NCBI RefSeq assembly: GCF_028198145.1
Contig: NZ_CP116338.1
Coordinates: 2,232,001 to 2,296,000 of the forward strand
Direction of reading: 5' to 3'
Origin: Microbacterium sp. nov. GSS16
GTDB lineage: Bacteria; Actinomycetota; Actinomycetes; Actinomycetales; Microbacteriaceae
DNA: 64,000 nt
The notes below the pieces were generated by a model. That model had not been told where the DNA came from and searched no databases. It saw only the letters and a program-made list of their open reading frames with translations. Position numbers and translations under genes: made by a program. This document shows positions 6,240 through 13,623 of this stretch, in pieces; position 1 is the stretch's first letter, and the number at the start of each line of letters is the position of its first letter.

Positions 6240-6299
6240 CGGCTGTCCTCCTGATCGGGGTCGTGCCTGCGAGCCTACCGTCGCCGTCTCACATGCTTC

Positions 6300-6337
6300 G
6301 TTATGCGTTTGTGAGCGAATTGTTCGCTGCGCGTAAC
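6300..6337 (-). promoter_or_regulatory. GlnR-like operator upstream of nirB
   Basis: Read on the - strand, four five-base half-sites follow one another with exactly six bases between them: GTTAC, CGAAC, CTCAC and ATAAC. This is the layout of the actinobacterial GlnR box (gTnAC-N6-GaAAC repeated), in which every half-site ends in AC. The first three half-sites match those in front of the nitrite channel gene at 12212-12238, in the same orientation relative to the gene. The element lies 63 bases upstream of the nirB start and 60 bases upstream of the divergent small gene. A perfect inverted repeat, AGCGAA-N3-TTCGCT (6314-6328), sits inside it. Confidence 0.6.
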
Positions 6338-6400
6338 GCAGGGCCGCGGGTTCGCGAAACACACGTTGCGTAGCTTCGGGTCTGACGGAAGGGGGGCCGG

Positions 6401-8980
6401 ATGGCAATTCAGAACACCACAGCCTCAGAGGTGCTCGTGATCGGCGCCGGGATGGTGGCACATCGCTTCGTGGACAGTCTGCTCAGCGGCGCCGACGCGG
6501 GGCGATCGGTGACCGTCATCGGCGAAGAAGGGCATCCGCCGTACGACCGGGTGGGTCTGACGTCGTTCTTCTCCGGGGCGACTGCGGAGGACCTCGCGCT
6601 CGACAGCGCGGTCCTCGCCGATGAGCGGGTCACCTACCTCGGCGACGACCCCGCGGTGCGGATCGACCGTGAGTCGCGAACGGTGAGCACCGTGTCCGGT
6701 GCCGTGCACTCGTACGAATCGCTCGTGCTCGCCACCGGCTCGTCGGCACCACGTGTTCCCGTAGAGGGCAACGATCTGCCCGGCTGCTTCGTGTACCGCA
6801 CACTGGACGACGTCACGGCCCTGCGCACGCACGTGCAGGAGCGGTTCGCGGTGCTCGGGCGTCCGCTCCGAGGCGCAGTGGTCGGTGGCGGCCTGCTCGG
6901 CCTCGAGGCCGCCGGCGCCCTGCAGGGCATGGGCGTGGAGTGCACGGTCATCCAGTCCGCCGACCGCCTGATGTCCGCTCAGCTCGACGACGCGGGCGGT
7001 CGCATGCTGCAGCGCCTGATCGAGGCTCGCGGCGTCGAGGTGCGCACGCGCAGCCGCACAACGAGGATCGCATCGGACGATTCCGGCTGGGTGCGCCGGG
7101 TCGACTTCGAGCAAGGCGGACATCTTCCCGCCGATGTCGTCGTCTTCACCGTCGGCGTGCGGCCCCGTGACGAGCTCGCACGTGCCGCGGGAATCGCGGT
7201 CCACGCGAACGGCGGCGTGCTGATCGACGACGCGTGCCGCACCTCCGACCCGCGCATCCTCGCCATCGGGGAGGTCGCGAGCTTCGACGGGCGCTGCGTC
7301 GGGCTCGTCGCCCCTGGTTACGCGATGGCCGAGGTCGCCGCGAGCGGCCTGCTCGGCCGGCCCGCGGCCTTCCCCGGATACGACGACGCGACGAAGCTCA
7401 AGCTCTCCGGGGTCGACGTCGCCAGCTTCGGTGACGCGATGGCGACCACGCCGAACGCTCTGGACGTGGTCTACGCCGATCCGGTCGCCGGGGTGTACAA
7501 GAAGCTCGTGCTCTCGGATGATGCGCAGACGCTGCTCGGTGGCATCCTCGTGGGCGATGCCAGCGCCTACGGCGAACTTCGCCCGCTCGTCGGAGCCGCG
7601 CTGGGTGGCGACCCCGCCGCGTATCTGATGCCGGAGGAGCAAGCCGGGACGCCGACGCGCGAACTGCCCGACGCCGCAGTCGTGTGCTCGTGCGCCGACG
7701 TCACGGCAGGGCGCATCCGCACCGCGGTCCACGAGGAGGGCTGCGCCGACGCTGCGGCGGTGAAGGCCTGCACTCGTGCAGGTGCGACGTGCGGTTCGTG
7801 TGTCTTCATGGTCTCGAAGATCGTCGGAGCCGAGCTGGCCAAGACCGGCCGCGCCGCATCGACCGCGCTGTGCGAGCACTTCGACATGTCGCGACGGCAG
7901 CTGTTCGACGCGGTCCGCGTCTCCGGGCTGACGACGTTCAGCACCGTCATTGCGCGCTTCGGACACGGCCGCGGGTGCGACATCTGCAAGCCCGCACTCG
8001 CGGGGATCCTGGCGGTGCTCGTCGGCGATCACGTGCTCGAGGGTGAGAACGCGACCCTGCAGGACACGAACGACCACGTCATGGCGAACATGCAGAAGGA
8101 CGGCACGTACTCGGTCGTGCCCAGGATGCCGGGCGGCGAGGTCACCCCTGCCGGCCTCATCGCGATCGGCCGGATCGCCGACGAGTACGGGCTGTACACG
8201 AAGATCACGGGTGGCCAGCGCATCGACATGTTCGGCGCACGCCTGGAGCAGCTTCCCGAGATCTGGGGGCGGCTCGTCGACGCCGGATTCGAATCCGGTC
8301 AGGCCTACGGCAAGGCGCTGCGCACCGTCAAGTCCTGTGTCGGGTCGACCTGGTGCCGTTACGGAGTGCTCGACTCGGTCGGCATGGCCGTGCGTCTCGA
8401 GCTGCGCTATCGGGGGCTCCGCGCACCGCACAAGCTGAAGCTGGGCGTCTCGGGATGCGCGCGAGAATGCGCGGAGGCCCGCAGCAAGGATGTCGGCGTG
8501 ATCGCCACCGAGCAGGGCTGGAACATGTACGTCGGCGGGAACGGCGGCTTCTCCCCTCGCCACGCGCAGCTGTTCGCGTCCGGCCTCGACGACGACGGGC
8601 TCATCCAGGCCATCGACCGGTTCTTCATGTACTACATCCGCACGGCCGACCGGCTGCAGCGCACCGCAGCGTGGTGCGAAGACCTCGAAGACGGTCTCGA
8701 CGGGCTCCGCAGCGTCGTCTTCGACGACGCGCTCGGCATCTGTACCGACCTGGACGCGGCGATGGCGCGTCACGTGGATCGCTATGAGGACGAGTGGGCC
8801 GCCACCCTGCGCGACCCCGAGAAGCTGCGACGCTTCAGTTCCTTCGTCAACGCCGCCGACACCCCCGACCCCTCGCTCGCCTACGTCCCTGTGCGCGGGC
8901 AGGTGCGCCCCGCCACCGAGGCGGAGCGCACGGCGGGCGGCATCCTGATCGCCGGAACCACCCTGGAGGTGCGCAGATGA
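6401..8980 (+). CDS. nirB: Assimilatory nitrite reductase, large subunit NirB
   Basis: NirB, 859 residues, is the NAD(P)H-dependent, siroheme-containing subunit that reduces nitrite to ammonium in the cytoplasm. The N-terminal part is an FAD/NAD oxidoreductase fold (VLVIGAGMVAHRF, residues 11-23; second nucleotide motif VVGGGLLGLEAAG near 165). A BFD-like [2Fe-2S] site follows with C429, C431, C464 and C467. The C-terminal nitrite/sulfite reductase part has the siroheme-[4Fe-4S] ligands C646, C652, C686 and C690 in the usual C-x5-C and C-x3-C pairs. All cofactor residues are present. The ATG at 6401 follows GGAAGGGGGG. The stop overlaps nirD by four bases (ATGA), starting a tightly coupled operon with nirD, cobA and the HemD fusion. 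Confidence 0.97.
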   Translation: MAIQNTTASEVLVIGAGMVAHRFVDSLLSGADAGRSVTVIGEEGHPPYDRVGLTSFFSGATAEDLALDSAVLADERVTYLGDDPAVRIDRESRTVSTVSGAVHSYESLVLATGSSAPRVPVEGNDLPGCFVYRTLDDVTALRTHVQERFAVLGRPLRGAVVGGGLLGLEAAGALQGMGVECTVIQSADRLMSAQLDDAGGRMLQRLIEARGVEVRTRSRTTRIASDDSGWVRRVDFEQGGHLPADVVVFTVGVRPRDELARAAGIAVHANGGVLIDDACRTSDPRILAIGEVASFDGRCVGLVAPGYAMAEVAASGLLGRPAAFPGYDDATKLKLSGVDVASFGDAMATTPNALDVVYADPVAGVYKKLVLSDDAQTLLGGILVGDASAYGELRPLVGAALGGDPAAYLMPEEQAGTPTRELPDAAVVCSCADVTAGRIRTAVHEEGCADAAAVKACTRAGATCGSCVFMVSKIVGAELAKTGRAASTALCEHFDMSRRQLFDAVRVSGLTTFSTVIARFGHGRGCDICKPALAGILAVLVGDHVLEGENATLQDTNDHVMANMQKDGTYSVVPRMPGGEVTPAGLIAIGRIADEYGLYTKITGGQRIDMFGARLEQLPEIWGRLVDAGFESGQAYGKALRTVKSCVGSTWCRYGVLDSVGMAVRLELRYRGLRAPHKLKLGVSGCARECAEARSKDVGVIATEQGWNMYVGGNGGFSPRHAQLFASGLDDDGLIQAIDRFFMYYIRTADRLQRTAAWCEDLEDGLDGLRSVVFDDALGICTDLDAAMARHVDRYEDEWAATLRDPEKLRRFSSFVNAADTPDPSLAYVPVRGQVRPATEAERTAGGILIAGTTLEVRR

Positions 8981-9339
8981 CCATCGCCCACAGTCTCGAC
9001 ACGCTCGTCCGCGCATGCGCGCTGACCGATCTCGAGGTCGAGAGAGGGCGCGCCGCCCTCTTCGGCAAGACGCAGATCGCGCTCTTCCTGCTCGCCGACG
9101 GCACGGTGCACGCGGTCGCGAACCTCGACCCGTACAGCGGGGCGCAGGTGATGTCTCGCGGCATAGTGGGCACCCGCGACGGCGCCCCCACCGTCGCTTC
9201 GCCGATGCACAAGCAGGTGTTCGACCTGCGCACCGGTCTGTGCGTCGCCACCCAGGGACGGCCGCCCGCGACGCTGCGGGTATGGCCCGTGGTCATGCAC
9301 GACGGCGACGTGCTCATCCACCTCGGGGAGCTGCGATGA
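8977..9339 (+). CDS. nirD: Nitrite reductase small subunit NirD
   Basis: NirD, 120 residues, has a Rieske-type fold that lost the iron-sulfur ligands, as is normal for NirD. The typical core is visible: HAVANLDPYSGAQVMSRGI and then SPMHKQVFDLRTGLC. It pairs with NirB in nitrite reduction; its exact contribution is structural or electron-transfer support. Start ATG at 8977 overlaps the nirB stop by four bases, and its own stop overlaps cobA by four bases. Confidence 0.95.
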   Translation: MTIAHSLDTLVRACALTDLEVERGRAALFGKTQIALFLLADGTVHAVANLDPYSGAQVMSRGIVGTRDGAPTVASPMHKQVFDLRTGLCVATQGRPPATLRVWPVVMHDGDVLIHLGELR

Positions 9340-10106
9340 CGATGCTCGGCAGAGTGGACCTCGTCGGCGGCGGCCCCGGTCCGGCCGATCTGATGACGGT
9401 GCGCGCGGCGCGTCTCATCGCCGAAGCCGACGTGATCGTGTTCGACCGGCTCGGCCCGGCAGCCGAGATCGTGCAGGGACTCGACCCTCGCGTGCTGGTG
9501 ATCGACGTGGGCAAGCAGCCCGGTCATCACCCGGTTCCTCAGGAGGAGATCAACAGGCTTCTCGTGATGCACGCGGCGGCCGGCCGCCGGGTGGTGCGTC
9601 TGAAGGGAGGCGATCCCTTCGTCTTCGGCAGGGGAGCGGAGGAGATGCAGGCGTGTCTCGTGGCGGGTGTGCCGGTCGACGTGACCCCGGCGCCGAGCAG
9701 CGCGATCGCCGTTCCGCAGGCGCTCGGCATTCCCCTCACGCATCGCGGCACGGCCGCCGCGTTCCACGTCACCACCGGGCATCGGGGCATCGACGCGACC
9801 ACGCTCACGGCCATCGCGGATCCCCAGGTTACGACCGTCATCCTGATGGGAGTGACCGCGCTTCCCCGTCTCGTCGACACGGCACTGCGACACGGCATCG
9901 CACCCGGCACGCCGATGGCGTTCATCGAGAACGGCCACACGCGGCAGCAGCGCTCGATCCGCACCACCCTCGGCAGTGCGGCAGCGGATGCCAGGACGAT
10001 GGGGCTGCGCAATCCCGCGGTCATCGTGATCGGCGACGTCGCGCGAGCCGGGCTGCTCGCACCGGTCCGGCCATCTCCGGTACCCGTGGGAGCAGTGTCC
10101 GCGTGA
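9336..10106 (+). CDS. cobA: Uroporphyrinogen-III C-methyltransferase (SUMT)
   Basis: This 256-residue enzyme methylates uroporphyrinogen III twice with SAM to give precorrin-2, the precursor of siroheme. Family motifs are intact: VGGGPGPADLMTVRA near the N terminus, VVRLKGGDPFVFGRGAEE (about residues 86-103), APSSAIAVPQALGIPLTHRG (about 122-141) and the later MAFIENGHTRQQR. There is no fused CysG-type dehydrogenase/chelatase domain, so those steps must be encoded elsewhere. The place inside the nirBD operon shows it serves the siroheme demand of NirB. It is coupled by four-base overlaps on both sides. Confidence 0.95.
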   Translation: MTMLGRVDLVGGGPGPADLMTVRAARLIAEADVIVFDRLGPAAEIVQGLDPRVLVIDVGKQPGHHPVPQEEINRLLVMHAAAGRRVVRLKGGDPFVFGRGAEEMQACLVAGVPVDVTPAPSSAIAVPQALGIPLTHRGTAAAFHVTTGHRGIDATTLTAIADPQVTTVILMGVTALPRLVDTALRHGIAPGTPMAFIENGHTRQQRSIRTTLGSAAADARTMGLRNPAVIVIGDVARAGLLAPVRPSPVPVGAVSA

Positions 10107-11230
10107 CGCCTGGCCGACTGCCGGATTCCGCTCTGGCGGGATGCGCGATCGTCGTCGTCGCCGATCGTCGCGCCGGCGATCTCGCCGTCGCGCTCGAACG
10201 TCGCGGCGCGACGGTGCAGCGTGCGCCCGCTCTCAGCATCCTGCCCGCCGCCGATGACGAGCTGCTCCTCGAACGCTCGCGCGAGCTCGTCGCCCAGCCG
10301 CCCGACACCGTCGTGGTCACCACCGGGGTCGGGCTCCGCGGCTGGATGGATGCCGTCCACGAGCGCGACCTGCACCCGCAGCTGACCCACGCGCTGTCGC
10401 AGGCGAGATTCATCGCCCGCGGACCGAAGGCGCACGGAGCCATTCAGCAGGCGGGGTTCTTCGCCGACTGGGTGGCGAGCACGGAGACGTCCGCCGAGGT
10501 GGCGGAGCATCTCATCGCCCGCGGCGTGGAGGGTGAGCGGATCGCCGTGCAGCATCACGGCGCGGGCTCCGACGGACTGGACGAGCTGCTCACCGCACAC
10601 GGCGCGACCGTCGTGCCCCTCATCGTGTACAGGTGGGGCCCGCCGCCGGATGCGGGCCTCGTGCGCCGCTCGGCTGAGCAGGCCGCCTCCGGAGCCGTGG
10701 ACGCGCTGCTGTTCACGTCGGCGCCGGGCGCTGCGGAATGGCTGCGCATCGCCGAGATCGCCGGGTCGCTCGCCGCGATCCGCCGGCGCGCGGAATCCCA
10801 GCGGCTGCTGCTGGCCGCCGTCGGTCCGATCACCGCGGCGCCGCTCCGGGATGCCGGCCTGCGGACGGCGGTCGCCGCGCGCGGACGTCTGGGTTCGCTC
10901 GTGCGGTGCGTCGTGGAGCATTTCGCGGCCGGGGCGCCCTTCGCCACCACAGCGGCGGGCGCGCTCGAGGTGCGCAGCGGTGGTGCGCTGATCGGTGATC
11001 GCTTCGTGCCACTGTCCCCGGCATCTGCGGGTGTGCTCGGCGCACTGTTCGATGCCCGAGGGAGCGTTCTCTCGCGGGAGGAGCTGGGGCGAGTGCTGCC
11101 GCGGGGAGGCCAGAGTCCGCACGCCGTCGAGATGGCGGTCGCGCGTCTGCGCGAGGCGCTCGGCGACAGGCGCGCCGTGACGACCGTGGTCAAACGCGGG
11201 TACCGGCTGGCGCTCGACGAGCGGCTCTGA
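10103..11230 (+). CDS. Uroporphyrinogen-III synthase fused to a C-terminal winged-helix DNA-binding domain
   Basis: The 375-residue product has two parts. Residues about 8-265 form a HemD-like uroporphyrinogen-III synthase, with LAGCAIVVVADRRAG at the start and the two-lobe pattern VVVTTGVGLRGW / DALLFTSAPGAAEWL / AAVGPITAAPLRDAG. Residues about 285-375 are an OmpR/PhoB-type winged helix: VPLSPASAGVLGALFDARGS, LSREELGRVL, HAVEMAVARLREALGD and the wing VTTVVKRGYRLAL. The start is a GTG at 10103 overlapping the cobA stop (GTGA). Mycobacteria carry similar HemD-winged-helix proteins near nitrite genes. It may be both enzyme and regulator, or a regulator that senses a tetrapyrrole; the sequence alone does not decide. 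A 16-bp hairpin ends the operon. Confidence 0.88.
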   Translation: MTPGRLPDSALAGCAIVVVADRRAGDLAVALERRGATVQRAPALSILPAADDELLLERSRELVAQPPDTVVVTTGVGLRGWMDAVHERDLHPQLTHALSQARFIARGPKAHGAIQQAGFFADWVASTETSAEVAEHLIARGVEGERIAVQHHGAGSDGLDELLTAHGATVVPLIVYRWGPPPDAGLVRRSAEQAASGAVDALLFTSAPGAAEWLRIAEIAGSLAAIRRRAESQRLLLAAVGPITAAPLRDAGLRTAVAARGRLGSLVRCVVEHFAAGAPFATTAAGALEVRSGGALIGDRFVPLSPASAGVLGALFDARGSVLSREELGRVLPRGGQSPHAVEMAVARLREALGDRRAVTTVVKRGYRLALDERL

Positions 11231-11236
11231 ACACGC

Positions 11237-11273
11237 GCCGACGGAGAGGCACCTCGCGTGCCTCTCCGTCGGC
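11237..11273. terminator. Bidirectional hairpin terminator between the nir operon and the nitrite channel gene
   Basis: A perfect inverted repeat with two 16-base arms and a 5-base CTCGC loop lies between two convergent units, 6 bases after the operon's last stop and 23 bases beyond the channel gene's stop. Placement suggests it serves both directions. Confidence 0.8.
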
Positions 11274-11295
11274 CCGTCCGTGAATGCACCTGCGC

Positions 11296-12129
11296 TCACA
11301 CCATGACGGAACGAGACTCCTCCGCGGGCTGCCGGACAGAGCTGCCGCCGTGCGTCAGATAGAGGGGGAGTCCGACGAAGAGCAGTCCGCCCACGAGGTT
11401 GCCGACGACCGTGGGGATCTCGTTCCAGATCAGGTAGTCCCACAGCGTGAACTCCCCGCCCATGAGCAGGCCGGAAGGGAACAGGAACATGTTCACGATC
11501 GAGTGCTCGAAGCCCATGTAGAAGAACAGCATGATGGGCAGCCACATGGCGATCACCTTGCCCCCGACGGTGTTCGACGCCATCGCCAGCACGACGCCGG
11601 TCGACACGAGCCAGTTGCACAGCATTCCGCGGATGAACAGCGTCAGCATGCCGGCGAGGCCGTGATCGGCGTATCCGACGGTGCGACTGTGGCCGATCTC
11701 GCCCAGCGCGCGGCCGACCTCGTTCGGCTCGGCTGAGAAGCCGTAGGTGAAGACCGCGGCCATGAGCACGGCGACGAGGATCGCGCCGCAGAGGTTGCCC
11801 AGGAACACCAGGCCCCAATTGCGGAGCATGGCAGGAACCGTGGCACCGGGGCGCCGTGCGAGGACGGCGAGAGGACCGAGGGTGAACACGCCGGTGAGCA
11901 GGTCGTAGCCGAACAGGTAGAGGATGACGAAGCCGACGGGGAAGAGCACGGCGCCCAGCAGCGGCTGGCCGGTCTGCGTGGCGATCGTCACGGCGAAGGC
12001 CGCGCCGATGGTGAGCAGGGCTGCGCCCATGAAGGCCCGGATCAGAGTGTCGCGTGCGGACATCTGCATCTTGGCGGCGCCGGCGTCGAGCATGTGGCCG
12101 ACGAGTTGGGCGGGCTTGACGTAAGACAC
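11296..12129 (-). CDS. Formate/nitrite transporter family channel (NirC-like)
   Basis: This 277-residue protein is a six-helix FNT channel. It shows the family pattern: ARDTLIRAFMGAALLTIGAAFAV for helix 1, a re-entrant stretch GNLCGAILVAVLM, and the conserved helix segment MGFEHSIVNMF with the pore histidine. Next to nirBD its most likely cargo is nitrite, as in NirC, although formate cannot be excluded by sequence. The GTG start at 12129 follows a perfect AGGAGG. A short hairpin (12148-12163) lies in the 5' leader just before the ribosome site. The gene converges on the nir operon but seems to share its regulator through the element at 12212-12238. Confidence 0.93.
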   Translation of the reverse strand: MSYVKPAQLVGHMLDAGAAKMQMSARDTLIRAFMGAALLTIGAAFAVTIATQTGQPLLGAVLFPVGFVILYLFGYDLLTGVFTLGPLAVLARRPGATVPAMLRNWGLVFLGNLCGAILVAVLMAAVFTYGFSAEPNEVGRALGEIGHSRTVGYADHGLAGMLTLFIRGMLCNWLVSTGVVLAMASNTVGGKVIAMWLPIMLFFYMGFEHSIVNMFLFPSGLLMGGEFTLWDYLIWNEIPTVVGNLVGGLLFVGLPLYLTHGGSSVRQPAEESRSVMV

Positions 12130-12163: not shown

Positions 12164-12211
12164 TCTCGAGGACAGCGTGGTCCAGCGATGTTTCCGAGGT
12201 TCGTGTGTGTG

Positions 12212-12238
12212 GTTACGCCTATGGAACCAAGTTCTCAC
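12212..12238 (+). promoter_or_regulatory. GlnR-like operator upstream of the nitrite channel gene
   Basis: Three half-sites, GTTAC, GGAAC and CTCAC, are spaced by exactly six bases each, fitting gTnAC-N6-GaAAC-N6-GtnAC of the actinobacterial GlnR box. A fourth half-site is not recognisable. The element begins 83 bases upstream of the channel start codon and is on the strand opposite to the gene, exactly as at nirB. It also lies 60 bases from the divergent rarA start. Confidence 0.6.
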
Positions 12239-12285
12239 CTCGCCCGCGCGGCGCTGTGAGCAAGACGGGTGTCGCTCGCCCCGAC

Positions 12286-12297: not shown

Positions 12298-13623
12298 ATG
12301 ACCTCCGCGCCCCTGCTCTCGGGACAGACACCGCTCGCCGTGCGCATGCGGCCGGTCTCGCTCGACGAGGTGGCCGGGCAGCAGCATCTGCTGCGCGCGG
12401 GGTCGCCGATCGTCGCCCTCGCCGATCCGGATGCCAAGGCGCCCGGCGCGGTGTCGATCATCCTCTGGGGTCCGCCCGGCACAGGCAAGACCACGCTCGC
12501 TCAGGCCATCGCCCGTTCCTCGGGGCGCCGGTTCGTCGAGCTGTCGGCGATCACCGCCGGGGTCAAGGACGTACGGGAGGTCATGCAGGAGGCGATCACG
12601 CAGCGCGACCTCTACGGCCAGACCACGATCCTGTTCCTGGATGAGATCCACCGGTTCACGAAGGCCCAGCAGGATGCCCTGCTGCCCGGCGTCGAGAACG
12701 GCTGGGTCATCCTCATCGCGGCGACCACCGAGAATCCGTCGTTCTCGGTGATCTCGCCGCTGCTCTCGCGTTCGCTGCTTCTGACACTGAAGCCCCTCAC
12801 CGACGACGACATCGGCGTGCTGCTCGACCGTGCCGTGGAAGACGCGCGCGGGCTGGCCGGCGCGGTGAGCGTGTCCGATGATGCGCGGGCGGCCCTGATC
12901 CGTCTCGCGTCGGGGGATGGGCGCCGTGCTCTCACCGGACTCGAGGCGGCCGCGGCCGTCGCGCTCTCGAAGCACGAGGAGGGTGAGGAAGTCGTCACGG
13001 ATGAGGACGTCGCCCAGGCCGTCGATCGGGCGCTGCTGCGCTACGACAGACAGGGCGACGAGCACTACGACGTGATCAGCGCCTTCATCAAGTCGATCCG
13101 CGGGTCGGATGCCGATGCGGCGGTGCACTATCTGGCACGGATGATCGAGGCGGGGGAGGACCCGCGGTTCATAGCCCGTCGACTCGTGATCTCCGCTGCG
13201 GAGGACGTCGGTCTCGCCGACCCGCAGGCGCTGACGATCGCGACGGCCGCCGCCGATGCGGTCGCCTTCATCGGGATGCCAGAGGGGCGCATCCCGCTCG
13301 CCGAGGCGACGATCTACCTGGCGACGACCGCCAAGTCGAACGCCGCGTACGCGGCGATCAATCAGGCGATCGCGGACGTGCGGGCCGGCGGATTCGGCCG
13401 TGTGCCGATCCACCTCCGCGATGCCCATTACGCCGGAGCGAAGCGCCTCGGGCACGGCAAGGGCTACCGCTATCCGCACGACAGCGACGCGGGCATCCTG
13501 CCTCAGCAGTACCTGCCCGACGAGCTCGTAGGGCGGCGCTACTACGAACCGAAGAACCTCGGTGCCGAGCGCGACATCGCGCCTCGCCTCGAGCGCATCC
13601 GGAAGATCCTCGGCGATCGCTGA
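12298..13623 (+). CDS. rarA: Replication-associated recombination protein A (MgsA/RarA family AAA+ ATPase)
   Basis: RarA, 441 residues, is a clamp-loader-like AAA+ ATPase acting at stalled replication forks. Motifs: MRPVSLDEVAGQQHLL near the N terminus, Walker A GPPGTGKTTLAQAIA (about residues 58-72), Walker B TILFLDEIHRFTKAQQDALLP (about 110-130) and sensor 1 IAATTENPSF. The C-terminal part has the typical AAEDVGLADPQAL and MPEGRIPLAEATIYLA segments. The ATG at 12298 is directly preceded by GGGAGG but with no spacer, and a TAGCCT box ends six bases before it, so a leaderless transcript is likely. It is divergent from the nitrite channel gene and unrelated to it in function. Confidence 0.96.
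   Translation: MTSAPLLSGQTPLAVRMRPVSLDEVAGQQHLLRAGSPIVALADPDAKAPGAVSIILWGPPGTGKTTLAQAIARSSGRRFVELSAITAGVKDVREVMQEAITQRDLYGQTTILFLDEIHRFTKAQQDALLPGVENGWVILIAATTENPSFSVISPLLSRSLLLTLKPLTDDDIGVLLDRAVEDARGLAGAVSVSDDARAALIRLASGDGRRALTGLEAAAAVALSKHEEGEEVVTDEDVAQAVDRALLRYDRQGDEHYDVISAFIKSIRGSDADAAVHYLARMIEAGEDPRFIARRLVISAAEDVGLADPQALTIATAAADAVAFIGMPEGRIPLAEATIYLATTAKSNAAYAAINQAIADVRAGGFGRVPIHLRDAHYAGAKRLGHGKGYRYPHDSDAGILPQQYLPDELVGRRYYEPKNLGAERDIAPRLERIRKILGDR

Follow-up and report, generated by a model that had tools for sequence, protein, structure and literature searches.

The DNA analysed here (the window) is a stretch of 64,000 nucleotides from the 2,906,279-base genome of Microbacterium sp. nov. 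GSS16, and coordinates refer to it. It contains a gene for a channel of the FNT (formate/nitrite transporter) family, convergent with a nirB operon whose last gene is of the nnaR type (Table 1). The FNT protein scores 142.2 bits against TIGR00790, under the cut-off of 232.3, and the product of the nnaR-type gene matches PF02602 and PF00486 above cut-off and PRK07239 with 376 bits (cut-off 273). Judging from overlap and spacing, nirB, nirD, cobA, and nnaR presumably form one transcription unit. Compared with locus L057, which holds one of the closest named relatives of this FNT gene, there is no SirC-like frame between nirD and cobA (window 9333-9340) and no CbiX/SirB-like frame after nnaR (window 11231-11295); these frames were identified by eye. 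Elsewhere in the genome there is a match to the CbiX family (G000:C1:1004193-1004717), and a genome search for SirC, partly without a positive control, found none, its best match reading like a 2-hydroxyacid dehydrogenase.

A first-pass annotation of the window had placed a 27-base element, GTTAC-n6-GGAAC-n6-CTCAC, 83 bases before the FNT start; it is found there, separated by 82 bases from the start codon (GTG at 12129, minus strand). Its nirB partner lies at 6311-6337 on the minus strand and differs by one mismatch overall (GTTACGCGCAGCGAACAATTCGCTCAC), so the agreement noted at GTTACGC, GAAC, and CTCAC is correct. Judging from its letters, the element forms the inner section of a longer promoter, in which an arm of an NnaR-type palindrome is joined to GlnR-type boxes with an 11-bp phase. 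On the gene strand the FNT promoter runs CTCAC-N17-GTGAG-n6-GTTCC-n6-GTAAC-n17-GAAAC-n10-CACGCT, followed by FNT, and the nirB promoter runs CTCAC-N18-GTGAG-n6-GTTCG-n6-GTAAC-n18-GAAAC-n10-TAGCTT, with its parts in the same order. The CTCAC of the 27-base element is one arm of the palindrome, the outer arm of which lies beyond the element's coordinates. The idea of one shared operator is right in that the element marks both the nirB and the FNT promoter, but it merges two sites into one and cuts the palindrome at its boundary.

Table 1. Genes and promoter parts at the nirB and FNT loci of Microbacterium sp. nov. GSS16
Feature	Position	Strand	Remarks
nirB NnaR-type palindrome CTCAC-N18-GTGAG	6288-6315	+	
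nirB box 11, GTTCG	6322-6326	+	GTTCG in 59/68 genus nirB promoters
nirB box 22, GTAAC	6333-6337	+	
nirB GAAAC box at +45	6356-6360	+	
nirB -10-like hexamer TAGCTT	6371-6376	+	
nirB, nitrite reductase large subunit	6401-8980	+	TIGR02374 978.7 bits, cut-off 578.35
nirD-like open frame	8977-9339	+	overlaps nirB end; named by eye from reading frame and position
cobA, uroporphyrinogen-III C-methyltransferase	9333-10106	+	TIGR01469 246 bits, cut-off 185; start at internal ATG
nnaR-type gene	10103-11230	+	HemD (uroporphyrinogen-III synthase) domain and C-terminal winged helix; start GTG, presumed
FNT channel gene	11296-12129	-	PF01226 E 2.8e-63; start GTG
FNT -10-like hexamer CACGCT	12174-12179	-	10 bases past GAAAC
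FNT box 44, GAAAC	12190-12194	-	GlnR b2-type position
FNT box 22, GTAAC	12212-12216	-	GlnR b1-type position
27-base element	12212-12238	+ (letters)	box 22, box 11, and inner NnaR arm
FNT box 11, GTTCC (GGAAC on + strand)	12223-12227	-	GlnR a1-type position
FNT NnaR-type palindrome CTCAC-N17-GTGAG	12234-12260	-	published motif; outer CTCAC 12256-12260, inner GTGAG 12234-12238
rarA/mgsA	12298-13623	+	divergent neighbour of FNT

Conservation and genome-wide uniqueness of the composite

FNT genes are present in 48 of the 149 genus genomes searched, and all 47 that have upstream DNA also match NirB (the FNT gene of G093, at a contig end, is left out of the 47). The nirB upstream regions come from 70 of 99 matching genomes, the omitted ones being 10 FNT-led operons, 13 low-scoring or partial matches, and 6 others. 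Relatives that keep the genes keep the element, as the first-pass annotation had expected: the palindrome is found at no fewer than 9 of 10 bases in 45/47 FNT and 68/70 nirB upstream regions, with a gap of 17 being common (21/45 FNT, 29/68 nirB). GNAAY stands at +22 in 33/45 FNT and 67/68 nirB promoters, at +44 in 39/45 and 9/68, and at +45 in 3/45 and 59/68, so that 42/45 FNT and 68/68 nirB promoters carry it at one of the latter two positions; at other offsets it occurs in a mean of 0.18 sequences (of 45 FNT) and 0.55 (of 68 nirB). Several assignments affect these counts. G162 and G187, both FNT-led operons, were assigned gap 16 and count as palindrome matches but box misses; the FNT gene of G096 counts as a palindrome match through the palindrome of its divergent nirB; the nirB gene of G192 counts as a palindrome miss as its locus is cut short, with the composite present there; and the nirB gene of G072 is a palindrome miss. 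G087 has 8 of 10 palindrome bases yet both boxes, and the FNT gene of G056 (L223) is without the operator. By eye, the region between the divergent FNT and nirB genes of G096 appears to hold two composite promoters placed back to back.

Among 31 aligned solo FNT promoters, picked for having both boxes and scored against an assumed background of 0.17 for A/T and 0.33 for G/C, the information content averages 2.08 bits per base in boxes 22 and 44 and 1.13 in box 11; the spacers have 0.53, the stretch past the -10 has 0.51, and the upstream flank has 0.10. Because these promoters were preselected for both boxes, the independent evidence comes from the offset counts and not from the bits. In the same alignment, the A at the second position and the last T of the -10-like hexamer are invariant.

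Both elements had been described as antisense to their genes. Box 11 (GTTCG or GTTCC) does agree better with the antisense reading, but boxes 22 and 44 favour the sense strand. Over 68 nirB promoters, box 22 reads GTAAC in 43, GAAAC in 20, GTAAT in 3, TTAAC in 1, and GCAAT in 1, variation that preserves the sense-strand AA at positions 3-4 and not the A at position 4 of an antisense box. Since the boxes are partly self-complementary and box 22 varies as GNAAC, the antisense label is weakly founded, and the sense reading appears better supported at the boxes conserved most strongly (22 and 44), box 11 being the exception. GlnR boxes usually stand in sense orientation, although published exceptions exist. 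Genus nirB promoters have two further conserved pieces: within the palindrome, at -11, 25/68 carry GTTAC or GTTAT, and 28/68 carry GNAAY at +6. Genus FNT promoters have no consensus for a -11 box.

The argument that two matching promoters are too much for chance is borne out. In the window, the 27-base pattern has 4 matches at three or fewer mismatches, where shuffled sequences give 0.74 on average, and the FNT and nirB sites are the only ones with at most one mismatch. In the whole genome there are 3 matches at two or fewer mismatches, the FNT and nirB sites being the best and the third having 2; at three or fewer, the count is 48, compared with 27 when the pattern is reversed, which makes matches with three mismatches mostly background. 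The palindrome alone is not unusual (the window has 2, with 0.81 expected; exact CTCAC-N15-19-GTGAG at 17 places in the genome, reversed control 9), and in the 15 of these 17 places inspected (2 were without a locus) boxes at +22 and +44/45 occur together only at FNT and nirB. The full composite occurs twice in the window, at these two promoters, and they are also the only two places in the 2.9-Mb genome with the skeleton GTGAG-N17-GNAAC-N17/18-GAAAC (control 0). A scan of both strands of 60 genus loci (560 kb) gives 57 matches to the composite, one each in 57 loci, all upstream of the queried gene. Chance is excluded as the source of the two-promoter element.

The skeleton extends into the family, with 44 matches in 38 of 299 genomes (6 of the genus) and 4 for the reversed control. 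Of 30 of these 44 loci, 22 adjoin NirB homologues (by tblastn) and 3 adjoin CbiX-like frames (identified by eye), making 25 in all; TAnnnT follows GAAAC by ten bases in 25/25 of them and in 0/5 of the others. The outer arm is looser in these 25 loci (3 of the genus), with exact CTCAC in 3/25 and nnCAC in 19/25. Many skeleton loci in other genera of the family (L271-L300) have TTCAC at +11, and in many family loci the promoter points away from the NirB homologue (divergent), often towards NirD-like frames.

In a wider set of FNT loci, 80 of 573 matches listed, Microbacterium included and with phylum assigned by title, 49 are actinobacterial, 30 pseudomonadotal, and 1 doubtful; the closest named relatives among the matches listed are from Microbacterium (L057-L059). 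Within these 80, the palindrome lies within 300 bases of 34/49 actinobacterial and 0/30 pseudomonadotal FNT genes (L082 entering with only 90 upstream bases), and palindrome plus +44/45 box of 26/49 and 0/30, with 8 of the 34 palindrome-bearing actinobacterial genes lacking that box. The palindrome is missing at the level of at least 9 of 10 bases from 15/49 actinobacterial FNT genes, and NnaR was found in 14/14 of those genomes that were searched, among them L136, whose protein lacks the winged helix. NnaR homologues occur in 47/49 of the genomes reached through FNT loci (50 of 58 loci, less L095), the other two being pseudomonadotal. The doubtful locus, L067, is a 3.2-kb contig filed as Stenotrophomonas maltophilia with FNT behind a full actinobacterial operator, and is probably contamination. 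In L077 and G056, FNT lies directly behind a frame that we take to resemble cyanase, with the operator absent, and may serve another anion. For G078, G072, G109, and G126, a palindrome shared with the divergent NirB-like neighbour was considered and rejected: the palindrome is symmetric, but there is no GAAAC on the opposite side at +44/45.

Regulators and competing explanations

The genome has both regulator genes, nnaR in the nirB operon and glnR elsewhere. The GlnR-like protein is encoded by a 226-codon open frame at L001, and among solved structures it matches 8hih best (E 1.1e-74), with 4o1h, 'Transcription regulator GlnR', ranking lower. The two regulators and the way they jointly control nitrite genes have been described before, for an FNT gene of Mycobacterium smegmatis among others. 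The M. smegmatis NnaR palindrome is CTCAC[a/c]-16N-[t/g]GTGAG, with a GlnR motif at similar distance in most targets (PMC6277429), and the palindrome is also found in M. abscessus (PMC11162112). In M. smegmatis, palindrome and GlnR motif precede nirB, narK, and the FNT gene msmeg_5360; expression of msmeg_5360 is reduced in nnaR and in glnR mutants, and its promoter is shifted by both proteins together and by neither NnaR (2 uM) nor GlnR singly (PMC6277429). Association of the two proteins was weak in pull-down and absent in two-hybrid tests, and msmeg_4008, with a palindrome one base short, was not bound by NnaR alone (PMC6277429). In S. coelicolor, a2 of the amtB promoter is at the -35 position and dispensable, b2 being essential (PMC5826061; PMC10704036), and NnaR and GlnR bind the nirB promoter cooperatively (Amin et al., 2012, as cited in PMC10704036).

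Very probably, then, FNT and nirB are governed by a composite NnaR/GlnR activator promoter with the 27-base element at its core. NnaR, a regulator in which HemD is fused to a winged helix, would bind the CTCAC-N17/18-GTGAG palindrome, and GlnR, an orphan OmpR-type nitrogen regulator, would bind the 11-bp-phased boxes between palindrome and -10 as a1, b1, a weak a2, and b2, with a2 in the -35 place and b2 being the GAAAC 10 bases before the -10. At both FNT and nirB the b1- and b2-type boxes match and the a1 and a2 positions are degenerate; with box 11 lacking a sense-strand A at position 4, the GlnR consensus is therefore only partly matched. This counts against the proposal, as do the looser outer arm outside the genus, the actinobacterial FNT genes that lack the palindrome or the +44/45 box, and the weak association of the two proteins in M. 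smegmatis. Under nitrogen limitation, GlnR, cooperatively aided by NnaR, would recruit RNA polymerase to both promoters, so that the FNT channel, presumably carrying nitrite, would be made together with NirBD, the siroheme methylase, and NnaR. The molybdopterin oxidoreductase family PF00384 has 0 matches in the genome, 11/14 control genomes being positive, and the organism apparently assimilates nitrite rather than nitrate. Since no molybdopterin-type nitrate reductase was found, a nitrite regulon of two transcription units, FNT and nirB-nirD-cobA-nnaR, as first proposed, fits the genome, with the composite found only at these two.

Could GlnR be sufficient, the 27-mer being an antisense a-b-a site and CTCAC merely another GlnR half-site? 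GTTAC-n6-GGAAC fits antisense gTnAc-n6-GaAAc, and the nirB site, helped by the -11 box described above, fits the antisense four-box pattern with 3 mismatches. However, this would leave the outer CTCAC arm, conserved in the genus, unexplained, and it sits poorly with a box 22 that keeps its sense-strand A at position 4 and with FNT promoters that share no -11 box. The genome also offers plain GlnR targets for comparison. Before glnA and amtB (identified by eye through their reading frames), where the first-pass annotation had suggested looking for the motif, the composite is absent, and we find GTAAC-n6-GAAAC-n6-xxxxx-n6-GAAAC-n10-[TC]AnnnT, a plain GlnR a-b-a-b site. No palindrome was found before the glnA or amtB of this genome (best 7 of 10 bases). 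Because these genes have GlnR boxes without it, GlnR alone is not the answer; we rejected the element as a plain GlnR site and consider this explanation improbable.

It is more improbable still that NnaR acts by itself on palindrome and boxes with GlnR uninvolved. The linkage of nnaR to its targets would suit this, as would one natural control, a Brachybacterium locus (L136) where the HemD protein stops short of a winged helix and the operator is missing before FNT. But the +22 and +44 boxes have the sequence of GlnR b-sites, the distance from GAAAC to the -10-like hexamer is the same at FNT and nirB as at glnA and amtB, which serve as an internal calibration, and the dependence of NnaR targets on GlnR has been published (PMC6277429; PMC10704036). 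The GlnR-like boxes might instead be occupied mainly by another OmpR-type regulator, MtrA or PhoP: the genome has 11 Trans_reg_C loci, and the MtrA motif is nearly identical to that of GlnR, with MtrA binding the mycobacterial nirB promoter (PMC6277429). Sequence alone cannot separate these proteins, but GlnR is favoured by the role of both targets in nitrogen metabolism and by the glnA and amtB sites, and we regard a leading role of MtrA or PhoP as highly improbable. The chance that the operator serves the divergent rarA, which starts 59 bases past its end and to which the 27-mer's written strand is sense, or that it is a random match, is negligible, since the solo-FNT loci L057, L058, L059, L061, L098, and L106 all keep it with rarA adjacent in L057, 1.9 kb off in L058, and not found within the other four, which led us to reject it as a rarA operator, and since the genus offsets, the genome-unique skeleton, and the 57/60 genus loci exclude chance.

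Comparison with known regulons and promoter grade

Composite NnaR/GlnR control as proposed here resembles the NnaR regulons of M. smegmatis and M. abscessus in setting the palindrome next to a GlnR motif (PMC6277429; PMC11162112). It differs in that no PF00384 nitrate reductase was found, in that the distances from palindrome to GAAAC to -10 are nearly fixed across the genus, and in that nnaR lies inside the nirB operon, comparable to its place within a narK3-led operon of M. abscessus (PMC11162112). The palindrome gap of 18 in M. smegmatis (PMC6277429) compares with 17 at Microbacterium FNT and 18 at nirB. The shorter FNT gap, seen beside the one-base-short msmeg_4008, speaks against NnaR binding there, although a gap of 17 is common in this genus. 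The 11-bp phase, weak a2 at -35, and b2 recall the a-b-a-b GlnR sites of Streptomyces and Amycolatopsis, with a b1-b2 spacer of 16 bases in A. mediterranei nas and of 17 (FNT) and 18 (nirB) here (PMC10704036; PMC5826061); unlike those sites, box 11 is a non-standard sense a-site and an NnaR palindrome directly adjoins the array. As at S. coelicolor nirB, two regulators would meet on one nitrite promoter, whereas the four S. coelicolor NnaR targets named in PMC10704036 do not include FNT. A literature search at listing level found no publication on NnaR/GlnR nitrite promoters in Microbacterium. Our analysis would thus extend NnaR/GlnR co-activation, known from mycobacteria and Streptomyces, to this genus, in a minimal form of two promoters in a genome where no nitrate reductase of the molybdopterin type was found, and the base-level map of palindrome, box positions, and -10 predicts the regulon from sequence.

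The newer part of the finding is a difference between the channel and reductase promoters at the -10. The first base of the hexamer is C, G, or A and never T in 33/33 scored solo FNT promoters, whereas it is T in 67/67 scored nirB promoters and in 8/8 scored FNT-led nirB operons (the -10 is unscored in 6/47 FNT, G096 included, and 3/70 nirB promoters). Reductase promoters carry TAnnnT, with mostly 18 bases from GNAAC to GAAAC, and at channel promoters this spacing is 17 bases. A -10 without the first T would suit a channel promoter that is weaker and leans more on its activators. It is possible, and we suggest it tentatively, that selection sets two promoter grades, with a fixed assembly of NnaR, GlnR, and polymerase holding the channel below the reductase; if this were true, nitrite entry would never outrun reduction. 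The strict -10 difference would then offer a simple way of testing how cells match the uptake of a toxic intermediate to its reduction. Of the two GlnR targets in this genome, amtB has C and glnA has T as the first -10 base.
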